From NCBI GenBank assembly GCA_028818695.1, contig JAPPNK010000026.1, positions 62,001-126,000 on the forward strand: a stretch of 64,000 bases of DNA, read 5' to 3'. Positions 13,775 through 42,574 of this stretch are shown in pieces. The notes below the pieces were generated by a model, which did no database searches, was not told the origin of the DNA, and was given only the letters and a program-made list of their open reading frames with translations. Each line of letters starts with the position of its first letter. Position 1 is the first letter of the stretch. The position numbers were made by a program, and so were the translations under genes. Source of the stretch: Candidatus Poribacteria bacterium (GTDB taxonomy: Bacteria > Poribacteria > WGA-4E > GCA-2687025).

Positions 13775-14521
13775 TTATGAGCGCGTTTGTAAAACGATGC
13801 CGCGTTTTTTTGCCAGGTCCCGCGCGAGCGGAGTCACCACTGCATTTGAGGGTACCACAATTGTTTGAGTCGCGCTGCGCAGATTTTCGATCATCGCTTC
13901 GGTGATGAGCGGGCGCTCGCTGCTGTTCGGCACATGCAGCGTCGCTCCGCCGCCCGCCGCGTTCAGATCCGCCGCCGCGGCGAGATGAATTTCGCCCGGC
14001 GCCGTCCATTGAACGCCAAGGCGTTCGCATGCGCGCCGTATCTCCTCGACGGCGCGCCCGGCGGGCGAATCGGACTCTCCGCCAAAACCGAACCCAGGCG
14101 ACGCAAACGCCGCCGCCCCGTTTGAAAGAGCCGTCCAGATCCATTCAGCCGGCAGGTCGTCCAGAATGCAGCCCGCCAGTTTCGCCGCGTCGCCGAGGCT
14201 CAACGTCGGCGCGGCGACCGCTTGAATGCCGGCAGGCAACGGATGCGGCTCGCATCCGCACACCGCCTCAAAACCATGCTTCCGAACCGCCTCGTACAGC
14301 GTTTCAGGCGCCCGATGCGCGCAGCCGACGATTGAAACGGAGCATCCGTTTTGGAGAAGCAGACGCGCCGCCTCGTCTGCCGCTTTCGGGGAGGCGGCGG
14401 CGCTCAACGCAACGGCGACGGACGGCGCAGACGCGGACTCCTCCGCCTCTTCCGTTTTCGCGTCCGCCTTCTCAAGCGTCTCGATGATGATGCGCCGAAT
14501 CAGCCGCTCGTCTATGTTCAT
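13775..14521 (-). CDS. Putative microcompartment-associated protein of unknown function
   Basis: A 248-residue protein. The first 18 residues (M-N-I-D-E-R-L-I-R-R-I-I-I-E-T-L-E-K) form an amphipathic helix, followed by an acidic Ala-rich linker, the layout of an encapsulation peptide that directs enzymes into bacterial microcompartments. The core looks Rossmann-like with Ala/Gly-rich strands (A-L-S-N-G-A-A-A-F-A-S-P-G-F-G-F-G-G). The tail V-V-T-P-L-A-R-D-L-A-K-K-R-G-I resembles a motif in Eut/Pdu-type proteins such as EutT. The gene lies between pduL and the CHAD gene, starting 35 bp after the pduL stop and ending 1 bp before the CHAD start. The specific reaction is unknown. Confidence 0.5.
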   Translation of the reverse strand: MNIDERLIRRIIIETLEKADAKTEEAEESASAPSVAVALSAAASPKAADEAARLLLQNGCSVSIVGCAHRAPETLYEAVRKHGFEAVCGCEPHPLPAGIQAVAAPTLSLGDAAKLAGCILDDLPAEWIWTALSNGAAAFASPGFGFGGESDSPAGRAVEEIRRACERLGVQWTAPGEIHLAAAADLNAAGGGATLHVPNSSERPLITEAMIENLRSATQTIVVPSNAVVTPLARDLAKKRGIVLQTRS

Positions 14522-14556: not shown

Positions 14557-15285
14557 TCAACAGATGATCAACTCAATGCCTTCGCCGCCCCGCAAGCCGG
14601 CGGCGTTTGCGTCGTCCGTATCCAGATGCGCCTGCGCGATGACATCTGGATGTACGCGTATGCGCACGTTGCCGAGCGTCAAGGACCTGGCTCCGCCGAC
14701 GCGGATTTGCACGACGTCCTGGTTTTGAACGCCGTAGTAGTCGGCTTCGGAAGGGTTCAAGTGAATATGGCGCGTCGGGGAGATGGCAGCCCTGATGTAA
14801 AGCGATCCTTTCGGTCCGACCAGCGTGATCGATTCGGCGTCCTCCAGGTCGCCGGAGGTTCGTATCGGCGGGTTGATGCCAAGCGCGACGCAGTCGGTCG
14901 GCGCCAGCTCTATCTGGGTGTACCGGCGCGTCGGGCCGAGGATGCGCACTCGTTCAATGGCGCGCATGCGCGGACCGATTGCCGCGACCGTTTCGTTGGC
15001 GGCGAATTCTCCCGGCTGGTACAGCGGCGCGTAGGAGGTGAGCCTGCTTCCCGGTCCGTAAAGCATCTCCAGATGCTCCTGCGTCACATGCGCATGGCGC
15101 GCCGACACGCCGACAGGGATCAGGCGCAGCCCCGCCGTTGTTCGGCACGCTTCCGCTTCTTCCGCAAAACTGCGGAACTGGACGCGGTCATGCTCGCCGT
15201 TGAGCCTGGACGCGTTCACCGCGGGGGCGTTCAGCTCGCTCTTCACGCGCGCTGTGATGAGATCAACGAGAGATTTATCCACCAA
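14557..15285 (-). CDS. pduL: PduL-type phosphate acyltransferase
   Basis: A 242-residue enzyme that moves acyl groups between CoA and phosphate, as in propanediol-type microcompartments. Both metal-binding histidine motifs of the duplicated beta-barrel are present: V-S-A-R-H-A-H-V-T and A-I-S-P-T-R-H-I-H-L. Q-P-G-E-F-A-A-N-E-T-V and the terminal D-T-D-D-A-N-A-A-G are family signatures. The N-terminus V-D-K-S-L-V-D-L-I-T-A-R-V-K-S-E-L is an amphipathic encapsulation-type helix. No ATG is available: the start must be the TTG at 15285 or the adjacent GTG, because a stop lies 21 bases upstream. No shell-protein genes occur in the window. It heads a minus-strand run with the unknown, CHAD and ppx genes. 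Confidence 0.85.
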   Translation of the reverse strand: MVDKSLVDLITARVKSELNAPAVNASRLNGEHDRVQFRSFAEEAEACRTTAGLRLIPVGVSARHAHVTQEHLEMLYGPGSRLTSYAPLYQPGEFAANETVAAIGPRMRAIERVRILGPTRRYTQIELAPTDCVALGINPPIRTSGDLEDAESITLVGPKGSLYIRAAISPTRHIHLNPSEADYYGVQNQDVVQIRVGGARSLTLGNVRIRVHPDVIAQAHLDTDDANAAGLRGGEGIELIIC

Positions 15286-15468: not shown

Positions 15469-15497
15469 TTGACGCGCTAAGCGCCCCTCTATATAAT
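15469..15497 (+). promoter_or_regulatory. Strong sigma70-type promoter
   Basis: TTGACG (15469-15474), a 17-bp spacer, then a perfect TATAAT (15492-15497). It lies 36 bp upstream of the coiled-coil gene that leads into the HNH/DEW genes. Confidence 0.8.
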
Positions 15498-16100: not shown

Positions 16101-16139
16101 GTGAACGGGCTGAATAGGACGGATAAACGGCGGGCGGCG
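16101..16139 (+). repeat. Leader repeat of the DEW-gene array, copy 1
   Basis: The stretch gtgaacgggctgaat ... acggataaacggcgggcgg is nearly identical to 18312-18350 and weakly similar to 17490-17530. It encodes the T-D-K-R-R-A-A start of a DEW-type protein, but here the frame stops at 16158 inside the HNH cassette. Confidence 0.7.
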
Positions 16140-16143
16140 AAGC

Positions 16144-17493
16144 ATGGCAAGGCAAAATAGCGACCGCTATCCGCCTCCCCGCAGCCAACATCCACGGCTG
16201 CTGGAAAAGTACGGCGCCTACTGCCAAGGCTGCGGATGCGATTTCACCGACAAACCCAACGACCTAGAAGTTGACCACATCCGACCCAAATCGGACGGCG
16301 GAACGGACGCATACGAAAACCTAACCCTGCTATGCCCTCCATGCAACCGTTCCAAAAGCGACACAATGACGCTGACAGGCTTGCAGCAGCGCAATCGGCG
16401 CGAAGGCATTTTACGACCCGAAAATGAAATCAATCTGAAACTGGGGCGCGGCGCAAACAATAAGTGGCGGGCGGCGTTTACGGCGGTCCAGGAGCTGTTG
16501 GCGGCGGAGGCGTCTGATGAATGGGCGGCGTATAAGATGGCAGAGGCGCAGTTGGCTCGGACGTATCCTGATGAGTGGATGGGGTTGGTTGTATCGGACT
16601 GGACGGATAAGCGGTCGGCGGACGCAAGGCTGGAACGTGAGAAGGCAAAGCTGAAAATAGCAGCGCCGCCTGATGAGTGGGCGGCGCTTGAGGAATATGA
16701 GTCGAAAATGGCCAAGCTGAAGACAGCCAAGCTGAAGGCGGAGGCGCAGTTGGCTCGGACGTATCCTGATGAGTGGACGGCGTATAAGGCGTATGATTCC
16801 TCGGAGGTGCGGCAAGTGGCGACGTTGCACGGGGCATTGTGGGTGGTGAAGGGAGGAGCGACACATGAGGAGGCGTATCAGAAGTATCATGCGCTGAAGG
16901 CAGAGGCGAAGGCAGCGCTGAAGGCGGCGATGGGTGCAGCGGCGCCAGAAGAATGGGCGGCGGCGCATGATGAATGGAAGGCGTATGAGTCTGCGTATAA
17001 GGAATATGAGGCGATGTATGATGATGCATGGGTTTGTCCTGAGATATGGGCGGGAAAGATGGCGTCTGATGCTTTGTTGGGCAGTGAGCAGCGTTCGGCG
17101 CTATACGGGACGCCGGAGGGGTCGGAAAGGAAGGCGGCAATGGAGGAATATATGGCGGCGCATAAGGCTGAATATGAGCGGCATATTGAGGAGTATGAGG
17201 CGATGACGCCTGATGAGTGGATGGATGTGAAGATGTGTTATCTGTGGGGAGAATTTGGGAGTCCTGTTTATGATGCGGAGAAGGCGCTTCGGCAGGCGGC
17301 GCCTGATAAGTGGGCGGCGTATGAGAAAGCGAAGAAGGCGGTTGACATAAGGATGGTTTGGGCAGCGAATATTTCTGATGTATATAAGGGATGGACAGCG
17401 GCGATGAATGCATTGGCGGCGGCAGCGCCTGATGCGGCGGATGTGTATTTTGCGCTGCGGTCGGCGTATCGGGACGCGCAGGCGCGCAAGTGA
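16144..17493 (+). CDS. HNH endonuclease fused to DEW-motif helical repeats
   Basis: A 449-residue protein. Residues 1-105 are an HNH domain: C-Q-G-C-G (zinc Cys pair), [13 protein letters not shown] (catalytic His) and L-L-C-P-P-C-N-R (second Cys pair). It closely matches the C-terminus of the methyltransferase at 23076-24674, through to N-L-K-L-G-R-G-A. Residues 106-449 are alpha-helical, built on a recurring [AYPT]-P-D-E-W-x-A-Y-x-x-A motif seen at least eight times (S-D-E-W-A-A-Y, Y-P-D-E-W-T-A-Y, A-P-E-E-W, T-P-D-E-W, A-P-D-K-W-A-A-Y). No membrane segment or signal is seen. The stop overlaps the start of the next gene by GTGA. The HNH part is probably a DNA nuclease; the repeat part is unknown. 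Confidence 0.75.
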   Translation: MARQNSDRYPPPRSQHPRLLEKYGAYCQGCGCDFTDKPNDLEVDHIRPKSDGGTDAYENLTLLCPPCNRSKSDTMTLTGLQQRNRREGILRPENEINLKLGRGANNKWRAAFTAVQELLAAEASDEWAAYKMAEAQLARTYPDEWMGLVVSDWTDKRSADARLEREKAKLKIAAPPDEWAALEEYESKMAKLKTAKLKAEAQLARTYPDEWTAYKAYDSSEVRQVATLHGALWVVKGGATHEEAYQKYHALKAEAKAALKAAMGAAAPEEWAAAHDEWKAYESAYKEYEAMYDDAWVCPEIWAGKMASDALLGSEQRSALYGTPEGSERKAAMEEYMAAHKAEYERHIEEYEAMTPDEWMDVKMCYLWGEFGSPVYDAEKALRQAAPDKWAAYEKAKKAVDIRMVWAANISDVYKGWTAAMNALAAAAPDAADVYFALRSAYRDAQARK

Positions 17494-18314
17494 GCAGGGC
17501 GTGTATAACGGATAAGCAGCGAGCGGCGTTTGCGGCGGTTGAGGAGCTGTTGACGCAGGAGGCTCCTGATGAGTGGAAGGCGTATCAGGCGGCATGGGAG
17601 GAGTGGGAGGCGTATGCGGCAATGCCTGTTGAATGGTCGTGGACAGCGCCGAAGGCTCCTGATAAGTGGACGGCAAGGGAGGCGGCGTTGGAGGCGGCAT
17701 GGGCGCAGGTGAAGGCATATGCAGGGATGCCTGATGAGCAGACAGTGCGGAAGGCGTTGATGGCGGCGCTGGAGATGAAGTGGACGGCGGAGGCGGCGGA
17801 GGCAGCGTATACGGAGGCAGATGGTGCGGCGGAAGCTGCGTACAGTACGCTGGAGGATGCGTGGGCGGCGCTGGAGGATGCGGCGCCTGATGTGTGGGCG
17901 GCGGCATATGAGGAGAGGGTGGAACCGCCTAATACGTTGGCGGCAGCATATGAGGAGGGAATGGATGCGGGGGATGCGTGGGGGGCAGTGGCGGCGGCGG
18001 CGCCAGATGCATTGGCGGCGTATAAGACGGCGGCGGCTGAATATGAAGCTGCGATAGATGTGCGGGAGGCGTATCGCGAGGCGGCAGCCGAACTTGAATC
18101 GGAGCTGGATGCGGCGTATAAAAAGTTTGAGTCCAAGATGGCTTCGATGACGGCGCGGGCGCTGAATGATTCTGCTGTGCATAAAGCGTATGGGGCAGCG
18201 CGGGAGGCGCTGGAGGCGGCGGCGCCCGCGGCGGCTAATGTATATTTTGCGCTGCAGTCGGCGTTTCCTGACGAGTGGCGGGCGTATCACGAGGCGCGAC
18301 GGCCGCGCAAGTGA
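17490..18314 (+). CDS. DEW-motif helical repeat protein without HNH domain
   Basis: A 274-residue protein starting at a GTG that overlaps the previous stop. It opens T-D-K-Q-R-A-A-F-A-A-V-E-E-L-L-T-Q-E-A-P-D-E-W-K-A-Y, matching the first repeat of the preceding gene. It continues with A-P-D-K-W, M-P-D-E-Q, A-P-D-V-W, A-P-D-A-L-A-A-Y and F-P-D-E-W-R-A-Y. The C-terminus (A-N-V-Y-F-A-L-Q-S-A-F) parallels that of the upstream protein (A-D-V-Y-F-A-L-R-S-A-Y). It is extremely Ala/Glu-rich and probably all helical. Composition bias alone can look protein-like, but conserved motif spacing and coupling to the HNH gene support a real product. No known family is recognised. Confidence 0.65.
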   Translation: MSRACITDKQRAAFAAVEELLTQEAPDEWKAYQAAWEEWEAYAAMPVEWSWTAPKAPDKWTAREAALEAAWAQVKAYAGMPDEQTVRKALMAALEMKWTAEAAEAAYTEADGAAEAAYSTLEDAWAALEDAAPDVWAAAYEERVEPPNTLAAAYEEGMDAGDAWGAVAAAAPDALAAYKTAAAEYEAAIDVREAYREAAAELESELDAAYKKFESKMASMTARALNDSAVHKAYGAAREALEAAAPAAANVYFALQSAFPDEWRAYHEARRPRK

Positions 18315-18326
18315 ACGGGGCTGAAC

Positions 18327-18407
18327 ATGGCGGATAAAAGGCGGGCGGAAGCAGCCCTAAAACCTCTCAAAAAAGAGCCGCCTATTTCCGATCTCCGCCA
18401 GCCATAA
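18327..18407 (+). pseudogene. Remnant of a third DEW-family gene
   Basis: An ATG at 18327 opens a 26-codon frame starting M-A-D-K-R-R-A-E-A-A-L-K-P-L-K-K-E. It aligns with the opening of the DEW proteins and is preceded by the same leader repeat (18312-18350). It stops before the first D-E-W motif and runs into the 3' end of the opposing gene. Confidence 0.5.
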
Positions 18408-23075: not shown

Positions 23076-24674
23076 TCACCGCCGCCTCTTCGGGGCGCCG
23101 CGCCCTAGTTTCAGGTTCGGATCGTTCTCGCGCAGAAGATGTCCGTCCCGCCGATTCTGGATCTGCAGACCCGTCAAGGTCATTCTGTCCATCTTGACGC
23201 GGTTGCATGGCGGGCAGAGCAGCGTCAGGTTGTCGTAGGCGTCGCTTCCGCCGTCCGATTTTGGGCGGATATGATCAACTTCTAGGACGCGCGGATCGAA
23301 GCGGTAGTCGCGCCCGCAGCCCTGGCAAAAGGCGCCAAACTGCTCCAGCAGCTTCCCATGCTGCGAACGCGGACTCGGATGGCGGGGGCGTTTTCGTCCT
23401 GTCGGCGTTTGAATATAAGCGGCCGTCTCGTCTACGCCGTCCGTCCGCTTGGGCGGCTCCGTTTCATAATGGACGGCGTCAAAACCGAAACGCCCCTGCC
23501 GCTCCAGATCGGGATTGACCTCGTCCGCCGCTAAGCCTTCCTTCGCAAACTCAGACAAAACCAGATCATGCGCTTCATTCCAAATGTCCATTCCAACCCA
23601 TTGACGCTTTAATTTTTCAGCCGCGACAAGCGTCGTCGCGCAGCCGCAAAACGGATCCAACACCATATCGCCCTCATTCGAGGAGGCTCCAATGATGCGC
23701 ATATACAAGTCCAGCGGCTTTTGGGTCGGGTATCCCGTTCTTCTGTTTCTTGAAACGGGCGGGATGTCGAAAAAAAGATCGTTCACCTTTGTTCCTGGAT
23801 AGGCGTCAGCATATTGCTTGATATTCGGCGTTCCGCTTTTTGACCATTCGATCATGTCCTCCTTCTCTAGCTTCTCTAGCCTTTCGTGGATCGATGCGAT
23901 CTCTCGAAAGCCGGGGATGACGTTCTGATCAATCCATTCCGCATAATTGCCCGTTTTTGGAACGCTCCAGCATCGTCCGATTTTGGTCGGGTCATACCCT
24001 TTATACGGCTCTCCGCTTTTGCCGCTTGACACCCCAGGTCCTGTTAAATCCGTGCGCCTGTATTTTCCCCGATCATCGCTGTATCTAAAGGTTTTTCTAA
24101 TGTATTCGGGATCGTCCACATACACATTTTTCCATGTGTATGTTTTCGATTTCGTATAAAAGAGGAGGATGTCGTGGATTCTGCCGTACCGTTTCCCGTC
24201 GCCCCGTCCGAGCGTTCGTTTCCACACGATCTCATTTCTAAAATTCGCGTGTCCGAAGACGGCGTCCAGCAGCATTTTGAGATAGTGGCTCGCCGTCGGG
24301 TCGCAATGGAGGTAGAGGCTTCCGTCATGCCGCAGGACGCGATGCATCTCAATGACGCGGACGCCCATGAAGCACAGATAGGCGGCGAGGTCGTCCCCGT
24401 AAACCTTCTTCGCCGCCATGACCGCGTTCCAGACTTCAGGGTGATCGTCCCTTATTTTGGTAAGCCATTCGTCATGGATGTCGTCGCGCCATGACCATCG
24501 GTCTTGGAAGCTGGCGCCGGCGGCGAGGCTGTCGGGCGTCGCGTGGAAATCGCGCGATTTGTTGAAAGGCGGATCGGTGGCGACAAGGTGAACCGTTTCG
24601 CTGTTCATGCCGCGCAGGAAGGCGAGGTTGTCGCCGTGGTATAAAGTGCGGTTTTGGAAGTTAGGCGCGGGCAT
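23076..24674 (-). CDS. Beta-class DNA methyltransferase fused to an HNH nuclease
   Basis: A 532-residue fusion. The N-terminal part is an amino-methyltransferase: D-P-P-F at residues 34-37 (motif IV) precedes D-P-F-C-G-C-A-T-T near residue 340 (motif I, SAM binding), the beta-class order, which methylates adenine N6 or cytosine N4. G-Y-P-T-Q-K-P-L is the motif before it. The C-terminal 100 residues are an HNH domain ([20 protein letters not shown]), nearly identical to the N-terminus of the HNH/DEW protein at 16144. The start at 24674 follows GAAAGAG; a start at 24710 is possible. One polypeptide could therefore modify and cut DNA. Specificity is unknown. Confidence 0.85.
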
Positions 24675-24747
24675 ACGTCTCTTTCGGCGGTTGAATGGAC
24701 GGAAGCGCATGTTACCGCTCCCGCTGGACGCTGTCAAGAAGCATGCG

Positions 24748-24776
24748 CTGACCTTAAGGCTTGGTTGGGACATGCT
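24748..24776 (+). repeat. Family A terminal remnant upstream of copA
   Basis: The segment ctgaccttaaggcttggttgggacatg is the left end of family A without the rest of the element. Confidence 0.5.
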
Positions 24777-24864
24777 GCGCGGAATGGACGGGCTGGCGCA
24801 GATGACGAAAGCCCCCTCCAAGCGCTACAATGAACAAGAAGCCGAACGGCGCAAAGGAGGCAGC

Positions 24865-35886: not shown

Positions 35887-37779
35887 ATGAACAGGTCCCT
35901 CTCTTGGATCGGCGCATTCTTCTTGGTCTGTTGCGTCTGGGCGGCGGCGGCGGCGGCGTCGGACCCTGAGCCGTCGCCTTACATTTCTCGTCTGTCGCTG
36001 CCGGACGGCGCCAAGATGCGCATCGGCAAAGGTCGGGTCAACTTCATCGCCTATTCGCCGGACAGCAAGCGAATCGCCGCCGCGAGCGCCATCGGCGTAT
36101 GGATTTACGACGCGGGTTTCGGCAAGGAGATCGCGCTGCTGCGGGGGCATACAAGGCGCGTCAACTCGGCGGCGTATTCCCCGGACGGAAAGCGGATTGT
36201 CAGCACAAGCTGGGACGGCACGATTCGGGTGTGGGACGCAGCGTTCAACCGCGCGGAGGATGCGCTTCTTTATACCCTTCAACAAAGCGCTAGAGCGGCG
36301 GCGTATTCCCCGGATGGCAAGACGATCGCCAGCGCCGGCAGCGACAACGCGATTCGACTATGGAATGCGGGTGACGGCGCGCTTCTCAATACGCTGGAAG
36401 GGCATATCGGCGAGGTACATTCAACAGCGTATTCTCCGGACGGCAAAACAATCGTGAGCGGAAGCGGCGACGGAACGGCGCGCATCTGGGACGCCGAAAG
36501 CGGCGATCTTCTCCGCGTCCTTGAAGAGCGTTCGTCCAATGCCGGAGGCGCGTTCGGCATCGGGTCGGTCGCGTATTCTCCGGACGGCAAGACGATTGTG
36601 AGCAGCGGCGGTGAAGCGCGCATCTGGGATGCCGAGACCGGCGATCTTCTCCATACCCTTGGAGCGGCGGATCCTTCTGTCGCGTATTCGCCGGACGGGA
36701 GGCTGATAGCATTCAGCGGGTTCTACGAAGGTCGGAATGGAATTGATTACGGGATTCGTATATGGAACGTCGCCTACGGCTCGCCTCTCCAGCCATTCGA
36801 TTTAAACACTGCCCACAATTGGGTCGCGTTTTCCCCGGACGGGCATAACTTAGCGGCAGGGAACTACTCTGGAATTTATATCTGGAATATCGAGATCGGC
36901 GAACGCATCCATAGAATCAGCGGACATGGGAGCGACGTTCAGTACGCTATGCTCACGCCGGACGGAAGCGGGATCGCCGTTGCTCACTTCACAGAACCGC
37001 TGCGTATATGGGATCCCAAAACCGGAGCGCTCCTCAAAGAGGTTCAAAAGGCTGACGGCAAGATGGGAGCCATTTCGCCGGACGGAAAGCTCGCAGCCGA
37101 CGTAGAAAACTTCGGCGAGACGATACGCATCATTGATATTGAGACCGATTCAGAGATACATACGCTCAACGGGCATACGAAGCGGATCACTGCAACGGCG
37201 TTTTCGCCGGACGGGAAAACGCTTGTCTCTTCAAGCAGCGACAAAACTGTTCGGCTCTGGAACGTCAAGACCGGCGCTCCGCTCCACACGCTGAAAGAGC
37301 ATACAGGCGCGGTCTATTCGGCTGCATACTCCCCCGACGGCAAAACGATCGTTACCGCCGCCGGCGATAAGACGGTACGAATTTGGAACGCCGAGACCGG
37401 CGAACTTCTGAAAACATTGAAAGAACATACAGGCTGGGTCTATTCAGCTGCATACTCTCCTGACGGCAAAACGATCGTTACTGCCGGCCGCGATATGACG
37501 GTACGAATTTGGAACGCCGAGACCGGCGAACTTCTGAAAACGCTGGAAGGACATACAAATGATGTCGTCTGCGCGGCGTATTCCCTCGATGGAAAGACGA
37601 TCGCCAGCGCGGGCGACGATCTGACGATACGCATTTGGAACTCCGAGACGGGCGAACTTCTGAAAACGCTGGAAGGGCATACCTCCCGCGTCAAATGGGT
37701 AGGGTATTTGTCGGACGGCAAGACGCTCGCCAGCGCCAGCGATGATGGAACCGTCCTTATCTGGGATGTGTCCGATTAA
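35887..37779 (+). CDS. Exported WD40-repeat protein
   Basis: A 630-residue protein with a signal peptide (F-F-L-V-C-C-V-W-A-A-A-A-A-A-S) and about thirteen WD40-type blades of the form A-Y-S-P-D-G-K-T-I-V-S-A-x-x-D-x-T-V-R-I-W-N. The last repeats (about 37270-37700) are nearly identical at DNA level (acatacaggc...gtctattc), showing recent expansion; the early ones are more diverged. Two propellers of 6-7 blades are likely. AAAAGGAG precedes the ATG. Such exported propellers act as binding scaffolds; the partner is unknown. Confidence 0.85.
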   Translation: MNRSLSWIGAFFLVCCVWAAAAAASDPEPSPYISRLSLPDGAKMRIGKGRVNFIAYSPDSKRIAAASAIGVWIYDAGFGKEIALLRGHTRRVNSAAYSPDGKRIVSTSWDGTIRVWDAAFNRAEDALLYTLQQSARAAAYSPDGKTIASAGSDNAIRLWNAGDGALLNTLEGHIGEVHSTAYSPDGKTIVSGSGDGTARIWDAESGDLLRVLEERSSNAGGAFGIGSVAYSPDGKTIVSSGGEARIWDAETGDLLHTLGAADPSVAYSPDGRLIAFSGFYEGRNGIDYGIRIWNVAYGSPLQPFDLNTAHNWVAFSPDGHNLAAGNYSGIYIWNIEIGERIHRISGHGSDVQYAMLTPDGSGIAVAHFTEPLRIWDPKTGALLKEVQKADGKMGAISPDGKLAADVENFGETIRIIDIETDSEIHTLNGHTKRITATAFSPDGKTLVSSSSDKTVRLWNVKTGAPLHTLKEHTGAVYSAAYSPDGKTIVTAAGDKTVRIWNAETGELLKTLKEHTGWVYSAAYSPDGKTIVTAGRDMTVRIWNAETGELLKTLEGHTNDVVCAAYSLDGKTIASAGDDLTIRIWNSETGELLKTLEGHTSRVKWVGYLSDGKTLASASDDGTVLIWDVSD

Positions 37780-37784
37780 GATTC

Positions 37785-37960
37785 CCGTTTTCACGGGAAT
37801 GACGATCTGGAGGGGCGCGCGGGAAGGACGATCTGAGAGGCGCGCGGGAAGGACGATCTGGAGGGGCGCGCGGGAAGGACGATCTGAGAGGCGCGCGCGG
37901 GAATGACGATTTAAGGAGCGCGCAGAATGACGGTCTGATCGGAGGAATGACGCGGAATGT
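37785..37960. repeat. Tandem 25-bp-class repeat grown from a MITE core
   Basis: After ATTCCCGTTTTCACGGGAAT, units of 24-27 bp starting gacgatctg and ending gcgcgcgggaag repeat about five times, degrading toward the 3' side. Each unit ends in GGGAA(T/G)GACG, the family A core edge, suggesting slippage from a core fragment. Confidence 0.75.
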
Positions 37961-42087: not shown

Positions 42088-42151
42088 TGTCAATGCTAAC
42101 CTATACACGTTATGGAACGGGTGTCGAACTCGAAGTGTGAAAGGACGGACG

Positions 42152-42574
42152 ATGAACGAAAACTCAACAAATGAAAGACAAACCGCAATTGATGCGGTCA
42201 TCGCCATCTTCAAAAAAGAAGTACCTGATGAGTGGGCGACATATGTGGCTGCGCAAAAGGCTTTACACGCCGCAAACACAATCGGCCTTGCCAGAGACAT
42301 AAACAATGCCGAGGCTGCGCTAAAGGACGTCTTTGAGAAACTAGGAACAGATGATTCACAAGTCGGCCGGTCGGAATTTGTCACACGATTAGCGTTGGAG
42401 GCATTCCACCCAAGCCATCACGCAGCAACTCAAGCGCTTCGGCATGCAGCAGCAGACATGTACGCAAAAGCCGCGCTTCAACTAAAAACGGCAGCACCCC
42501 AGACATTTGAGGCATACATGGCTTTGCCAAAAGTGTCTGGAACATCAACTCAAAATAGGAAAGACGAAAAATGA
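42152..42574 (+). CDS. Small DEW-family protein beside a methyltransferase-HNH gene
   Basis: A 140-residue protein opening E-R-Q-T-A-I-D-A-V-I-A-I-F-K-K-E-V-P-D-E-W-A-T-Y, which aligns with the start of the proteins at 16144 and 17490. A second degenerate motif (A-P-Q-T-F-E-A-Y-M-A-L) is near the C-terminus. It is probably all helical and soluble. The start at 42152 was preferred over an in-frame GTG at 42137. Its DNA and upstream region are visibly more AT-rich than the surroundings, suggesting acquisition. It ends 5 bp from the 3' end of the convergent methyltransferase-HNH gene. Confidence 0.65.
   Translation: MNENSTNERQTAIDAVIAIFKKEVPDEWATYVAAQKALHAANTIGLARDINNAEAALKDVFEKLGTDDSQVGRSEFVTRLALEAFHPSHHAATQALRHAAADMYAKAALQLKTAAPQTFEAYMALPKVSGTSTQNRKDEK

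Follow-up and report, generated by a model that had tools for sequence, protein, structure and literature searches.

The window, that is, the whole stretch of 64,000 nucleotides of a Candidatus Poribacteria contig that was analysed, contains at positions 16101 to 18407 an array of three successive units with a common leader (Table 1). The first unit encodes an HNH nuclease head fused to a tail of repeats here denoted DEW (protein W1), the second one encodes a free-standing DEW-repeat protein (W2), and the third one is a remnant. The two open reading frames (ORFs) and the remnant are located where the original prediction placed them, and its claim that unit 1 carries an HNH nuclease cassette is borne out by a match to PF01844, with the module and the repeats fused in one ORF. 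The array is one of about 15 DEW loci that are dispersed over the genome.

Table 1. Features of the window discussed in the text (all coordinates are window positions).
Feature	Coordinates	Strand	Remarks
Sigma-70-like promoter match, TTGACG-17-TATAAT	15469..15497	+	11/12 positions match; upstream of the coiled-coil gene
Exported coiled-coil protein, 187 aa	15534..16097	+	signal peptide, heptad/hendecad repeats, TM segment; not a DEW protein
Unit 1 leader, GTG mini-ORF VNGLNRTDKRRAAKHGKAK followed by a stop	16101..16160	+	counterpart of the unit 2 start
W1, HNH-DEW fusion protein, 449 aa	16144..17493	+	codon score 92; GTGA overlap with the next gene
W1 HNH nuclease head	16168..16464	+	zinc CxxC pairs, DH...N...N
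W1 DEW-repeat tail, ~340 aa	16465..17490	+	7 profile-scored units; net charge -15; all-helical prediction, low confidence
W2, free-standing DEW-repeat protein, 274 aa	17490..18314	+	net charge -24; codon score 70
Unit 3 remnant	18312..18407	+	leader and 26 codons (MADKRRAEAALKPL...), without repeat
N6/N4 DNA methyltransferase with C-terminal HNH	23076..24821	-	nearest relative of the W1 head in the window
Second DEW locus, 145-aa ORF	42137..42574	+	one strong unit (KKEVPDEWATYVAAQKAL); convergent with the adjoining MTase-HNH gene
Second MTase-HNH gene, 526 aa	42580..44160	-	
Palindrome ATTCCCGC-N-GCGGGAAT	2248, 3474, 3583, 19077, 21452, 22960, 30477, 45035, 47838, 54385		

The leader common to positions 16101, 17490 and 18312, which had been predicted, is recovered in all three pairwise comparisons, with alignment scores above those of shuffled controls: the leaders of units 1 and 3 are the strongest pair (61 vs a null maximum of 35), followed by units 2 and 3 (43 vs 31) and units 1 and 2 (43 vs 39). 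The stop codon of W1 is overlapped by the start of unit 2 in the GTGA at 17490. The protein opening TDKxRAA, in contrast, is shared less widely than predicted: it is present in unit 2, whereas in unit 1 it lies outside the 449-aa protein, as TDKRRAA in a 19-codon ORF with a stop just within the HNH ORF, and unit 3 starts with MADKRRAEAALKPL, not TDKxRAA. Units 1 and 2 also have similar ends (PDAADVYFALRSAY vs PAAANVYFALQSAF), and are thus tandem duplicates of a whole unit. Given that the unit 1 leader stops inside the HNH ORF and that unit-2-like sequence resumes downstream of the HNH module (NKWRAAFTAVQELL vs DKQRAAFAAVEELL), unit 1 looks like a DEW gene the start of which was replaced or interrupted by this module.

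The DEW unit has the consensus x-A-L-x-x-A-A-P-[DEA]-E-W-x-A-[YF]-x-x-A. Two profiles were used, A1, with 36 columns and built from 22 units of proteins of this genome, and A4, a broader one with 33 units, and family membership was defined by at least one unit ALxxAAP[DEA]EWxA[YF] scored by A1/A4. W1 and W2 reach 109 and 39 bits, respectively, and members outside the profile building 17-47 bits, vs at most 4.3 bits for 1046 scored shuffles. Synonymous codons vary at conserved residues (for example, the proline is encoded by CCT 17, CCG 12, CCC 5 and CCA 2 times), and the codon-usage scores of most DEW ORFs resemble those of ordinary genes. Taken together, the shuffle scores, the synonymous variation and the codon usage indicate that the DEW repeat is real, coding and conserved at the protein level. 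A low-complexity artefact, the refuting case that the original prediction itself had raised, is ruled out by the shuffles and the codon variation, and a DNA-level repeat or mobile element is ruled out as well, the flanks not being common to the loci.

As had been suspected, the repeats could be assigned to no family of Pfam, NCBIfam or PHROGs and to no PDB sequence; we also found no paper on the DEW repeat. The W-x-x-Y spacing within a helix and the proline before the helix are reminiscent of the HAT and TPR repeats, and paired helices are likely, but a Pfam search for HAT, TPR or Sel1 in DEW proteins yielded no match up to E 0.5-1. Furthermore, the repeats do not form a regular array, the spacing of PDEW in unit 1 ranging from 18 to 63 aa. 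Single-sequence structure models are all-helical, with many helices beginning at PDEW, and are of low confidence (mean pLDDT 45 and 58). The proline-acidic pair would provide the cap and the starting point of a helix, with the Trp/Tyr packing against the neighbouring helix; a Trp/Tyr pair three residues apart combined with such a helix start would suit helix-hairpin packing. The DEW tails are mostly acidic. Between duplicates, the dN/dS of the DEW domains is 0.42-0.61, that is, the constraint is mild, and part of the family may be drifting.

The DEW family comprises some 19-20 genes, which are distributed over 15 loci and 12 contigs of one genome, with profile A1 giving 49 matches at a threshold of E 0.01 and 64 at E 1. 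Besides the two loci in the window, DEW genes are found on the same contig (C26) at 15-17 kb (two genes) and at 187 kb, and on contigs C3, C12, C13 (two genes), C15, C18, C19, C20, C23, C24, C29 (one intact, one broken) and C35. The coding status of the second window locus is less certain, this ORF being absent from the genes picked by codon score. A lipobox signal peptide, as read by eye, is intact in eight members, and the other members are plain soluble proteins. No DEW matches were detected in 57 other genomes of the class with profile A1, nor in 83 other genomes of the phylum (5 of the same family, none of the same genus) with both profiles; a narrow screen of 84,980 species, for which six seeds of 8 residues from a DEW lipoprotein were used, detected no relative, viral contigs yielded no DEW relatives, and plasmids no relatives of W2. 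Within the sensitivity of these searches, which is limited for very divergent repeats, the DEW family, as found so far, is private to one genome.

At the C20 locus, the DEW gene is flanked by a DUF1501 gene on one side and a gene without a Pfam match at 1e-10 on the other. In three relatives (G005, G006 and G012), these two flanking genes are adjacent, only some 90-230 bp apart, implying that the DEW gene was gained there. At locus L092 (4282-4957), a DEW lipoprotein gene that is broken into two parts, with ORFs of 115 and 84 aa, adjoins an intact one, and the HNH-DEW gene on C24 is followed by an open stretch (L009, 6524-6672; VKREEKALKRTRSAHETARSESRRAL...) that is possibly a unit remnant like unit 3. 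DNA similarity between DEW loci is found mainly in the repeat units, the HNH module and a genome-wide palindrome, ATTCCCGC(TTTC/GAAA)GCGGGAAT; this palindrome, common to some DEW loci, has a frequency of about one per 9 kb in the sequence stretches that were read. No terminal repeats or common flanks of the kind expected of a mobile element were found to link the DEW loci.

The DEW genes could be selfish or accidental, that is, short, low-constraint coding repeats expanded by recombination, with HNH-DEW being a chance fusion without a cellular role. Such an origin would account for the private and dispersed distribution, the variable repeat number, the tandem duplicates, remnants and broken copy, the mild constraint on DEW and the gain of one gene at an intact operon boundary. 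Nevertheless, we consider it unlikely, given the intact lipobox signals in eight copies, the loci that no terminal repeats or common flanks connect and the HNH heads, which have evolved under a low dN/dS (0.12) after a shared fusion.

The HNH head of W1 matches PF01844 over residues 27-73 with 57.4 bits (E 1.6e-15), vs a curated cut-off of 21.4, and the corresponding modules on C24 and C19 score 59 and 60 bits. The catalytic D-H and N residues and the zinc cysteines are present in W1 and are kept in C24 and C19; the W1 head presumably still cuts or nicks DNA. The C24 HNH-DEW protein consists of 668 aa, and its gene stands alone. The C19 protein (L099, 5462-6481) is 339 aa long from its likely start, with a DEW lipoprotein gene coupled just upstream, and its tail is Trp-rich, helical and strongly acidic (AWDQYTEATDEAWDQYS) and does not score with the DEW profile. 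The junction between HNH and tail reads GRGANN[KE]WR[AT]A in W1 and C24, and LRAYKKWRKAF in C19. When 34 HNH domains are placed in a tree, the W1, C24 and C19 heads form one clade beside the clade of methyltransferase-HNH (MTase-HNH) enzymes, with a support of 93/92, which is just under the usual cut. The dN/dS of the HNH is 0.12 (95% 0.06-0.25) between W1 and C24, and 0.29 (0.14-0.52) between C24 and C19; the former value indicates that selection preserved the head, whereas the tails diverged so far that they are difficult to align.

The fused proteins aside, the closest relatives of the W1 head in its own genome are the C-terminal HNH domains of N6/N4 methyltransferases (PF01555 + PF01844). 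HNH modules at four further sites of the genome share 67-79% identity with the head. The head is about 70% identical to that of the methyltransferase encoded some 5.6 kb downstream at 23076-24821, and has the flanking motif RSQH...GLQ..NRR.G...NLKLGRG in common with the MTase-HNH enzymes. Unlike these enzymes, W1 lacks a methyltransferase domain (only nuclease families score above the Pfam cut-off), and its HNH is N-terminal, with the DEW repeats following, whereas the MTase-HNH enzymes have it at the C-terminus. The zinc CxxC pairs and the motif VDHI.P...GGTDAYENL.L.C..CN..K resemble Cas9 and IscB, and the best PDB sequence match of the head is a Cas9 HNH (8d2k, E 1.3e-8), but W1 has no RuvC, bridge helix or guide-RNA parts, and the NCBIfam IscB model matches the HNH only, with 50 bits vs a curated cut-off of 175. 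The distribution of these genes suggests that the module moved from an MTase-HNH to a DEW gene, so that an MTase-HNH enzyme was probably the donor of the head.

More MTase-HNH fusion enzymes are encoded at loci L048, L049, L053 and L054, with many copies in the genome and across the class, and a search of named genomes retrieved 42 loci, mostly from Chloroflexota MAGs and some from proteobacterial MAGs. The gene at 23076-24821 has a second copy on the same contig (C26:266 kb, 266608), with 97% DNA identity over 1.7 kb. In a Dehalococcoidia MAG, a 147-aa HNH protein of the same HNH subfamily is encoded directly after an MTase-HNH gene (L105, 4593-5036), a possible free intermediate of HNH capture. 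A group II intron maturase was suspected as the donor from frames of about 460-490 aa in relatives; those read turned out to be N6/N4-type methyltransferases. The proposed clustering of DEW genes with methyltransferase genes did not materialize: only the ORF at 42137-42574 abuts an MTase-HNH gene, and an MT-A70-like ORF was recognized by eye near the DEW pair at C26:15-17 kb, which we judged to be too few cases. Methyltransferases thus appear to be linked to DEW by the origin of the HNH module, not by clustering.

The resemblance of the head to phage HNH and group II maturase HNH domains (the phage matches of W1 are mainly to its HNH part) and the three copies at unrelated sites raise the question whether HNH-DEW is a free-standing homing-type endonuclease gene that spreads itself, with the tail serving for DNA recognition. 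This appears highly improbable: acidic tails (net charges -15 and -21) would be atypical of DNA-binding domains, the copies are intergenic rather than inserted into introns, inteins or conserved genes, and the same repeat is found in lipoproteins.

Upstream of the array, the predicted exported coiled-coil gene is indeed present, its product reading as a signal-peptide, coiled-coil, transmembrane protein that has no relative in its own genome except the query itself; it is possibly the first gene of the operon. The strong promoter predicted there is less secure: the TTGACG-17-TATAAT site exists, but chance alone would yield 1.9 sites of this kind in the region. An exported coiled-coil/TM gene with the same layout lies directly before the C3 DEW gene (L094, 5224-5649, minus strand), and the recurrence at these two loci is a weak hint of a unit.

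The original prediction combined the nuclease, the repeat proteins and the membrane component into one system, possibly for defence or DNA processing. If HNH-DEW, the DEW protein and the exported coiled-coil protein formed an anti-phage unit, with the DEW tails sensing the invader, the fast evolution of the tails would be explained, as would the direct coupling of two of the three HNH loci to another DEW protein (the window, and C19 with the lipoprotein gene preceding the HNH gene) and the coiled-coil gene at C3; in addition, the heads are matched by profiles of defence HNH proteins, PtuB among them (E 2.6e-9). The similarity to Septu is, however, that of the HNH fold of PtuB (PADLOC E 2.6e-9) and is confined to the HNH region, no PtuA ATPase partner being recognized next to W1 in the gene list around 11-20 kb. 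Moreover, a system of nuclease, repeat proteins and membrane component is not supported: HNH is found at only 3 of the approximately 15 DEW loci, the majority of which thus lack a nuclease, the HNH-DEW gene on C24 has no such companions, and the family is limited to one genome. The defence-island context that had been envisaged did not emerge either: the scanned neighbours at other loci are metabolic or housekeeping genes, such as those for sugar oxidoreductase, isomerase, sulfatase, UvrA, glycosyltransferase, penicillin-binding protein and guanylate kinase. Because of these neighbours, and because the PADLOC profiles align with W1 and W2 in the HNH fold or in long helices, a defence role is possible but unsupported, and we regard the anti-phage unit as improbable.

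The genes around the array, at 11-20 kb, include Ppx/GppA, CHAD, PTAC and beta-lactamase. The PTAC gene (PduL-type phosphate propanoyltransferase; 14557-15285, minus strand), which has a possible microcompartment link, adjoins a gene without a Pfam match (13775-14521). PhyH and WD40 genes are also present in the window; at 37291-37736 and 37794-37938, there are near-identical 126-bp repeats in a WD40 protein gene and, just downstream, a 26-bp tandem array. Poribacteria that are sponge symbionts encode eukaryote-like repeat proteins (ANK, TPR, LRR), PhyH proteins and microcompartments (PMC3909097), and the PTAC, PhyH and WD40 genes of the window would suit this picture. The DEW proteins resemble the symbiont repeat proteins in being a lineage expansion with some exported members, but DEW is none of the repeats named in that work.

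Altogether, the explanation that we favour, and hold to be reasonably likely, is that the array is a tandem DEW duplicate within a lineage-private family of alpha-helical repeats, in which an HNH module was captured once and then duplicated, with the head remaining under selection and the tails diverging fast. Specifically, an HNH related to the C-terminus of MTase-HNH enzymes would have been joined once to the start of a DEW gene, and the fusion subsequently duplicated, giving rise to the copies in the window, on C24 and, with a different, Trp-rich helical tail, on C19. A single capture followed by duplication is the simplest reading of the sequences. The presence of the DEW domain behind both a lipid anchor and a nuclease, along with its acidity, argues for protein docking over DNA binding, and our best guess is that the DEW tail is a protein-docking scaffold that would bring the HNH head or the lipid anchor to a partner; the fast divergence of the tails would fit a rapidly changing role in partner recognition. 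It is a much bolder proposition, to which we give only a slim chance, that the DEW arrays constitute a modular scaffold for recognition that evolves fast and is specific to this lineage, where it would be used both in lipoproteins at the surface or in the periplasm and as a tail that targets captured HNH nucleases, and would be directed, for example, at host, phage or neighbour-cell surfaces.

The locus represents a clean case of a new repeat-protein family that arises and expands in one bacterial lineage and recombines with an existing enzyme domain; MTase-HNH enzymes are abundant in related genomes, and a single genome displays both the likely donor and the recipient. Should the tails turn out to target the nuclease or to bind partners at the surface, the family would provide a natural scaffold based on a repeat absent from Pfam, NCBIfam and PHROGs.
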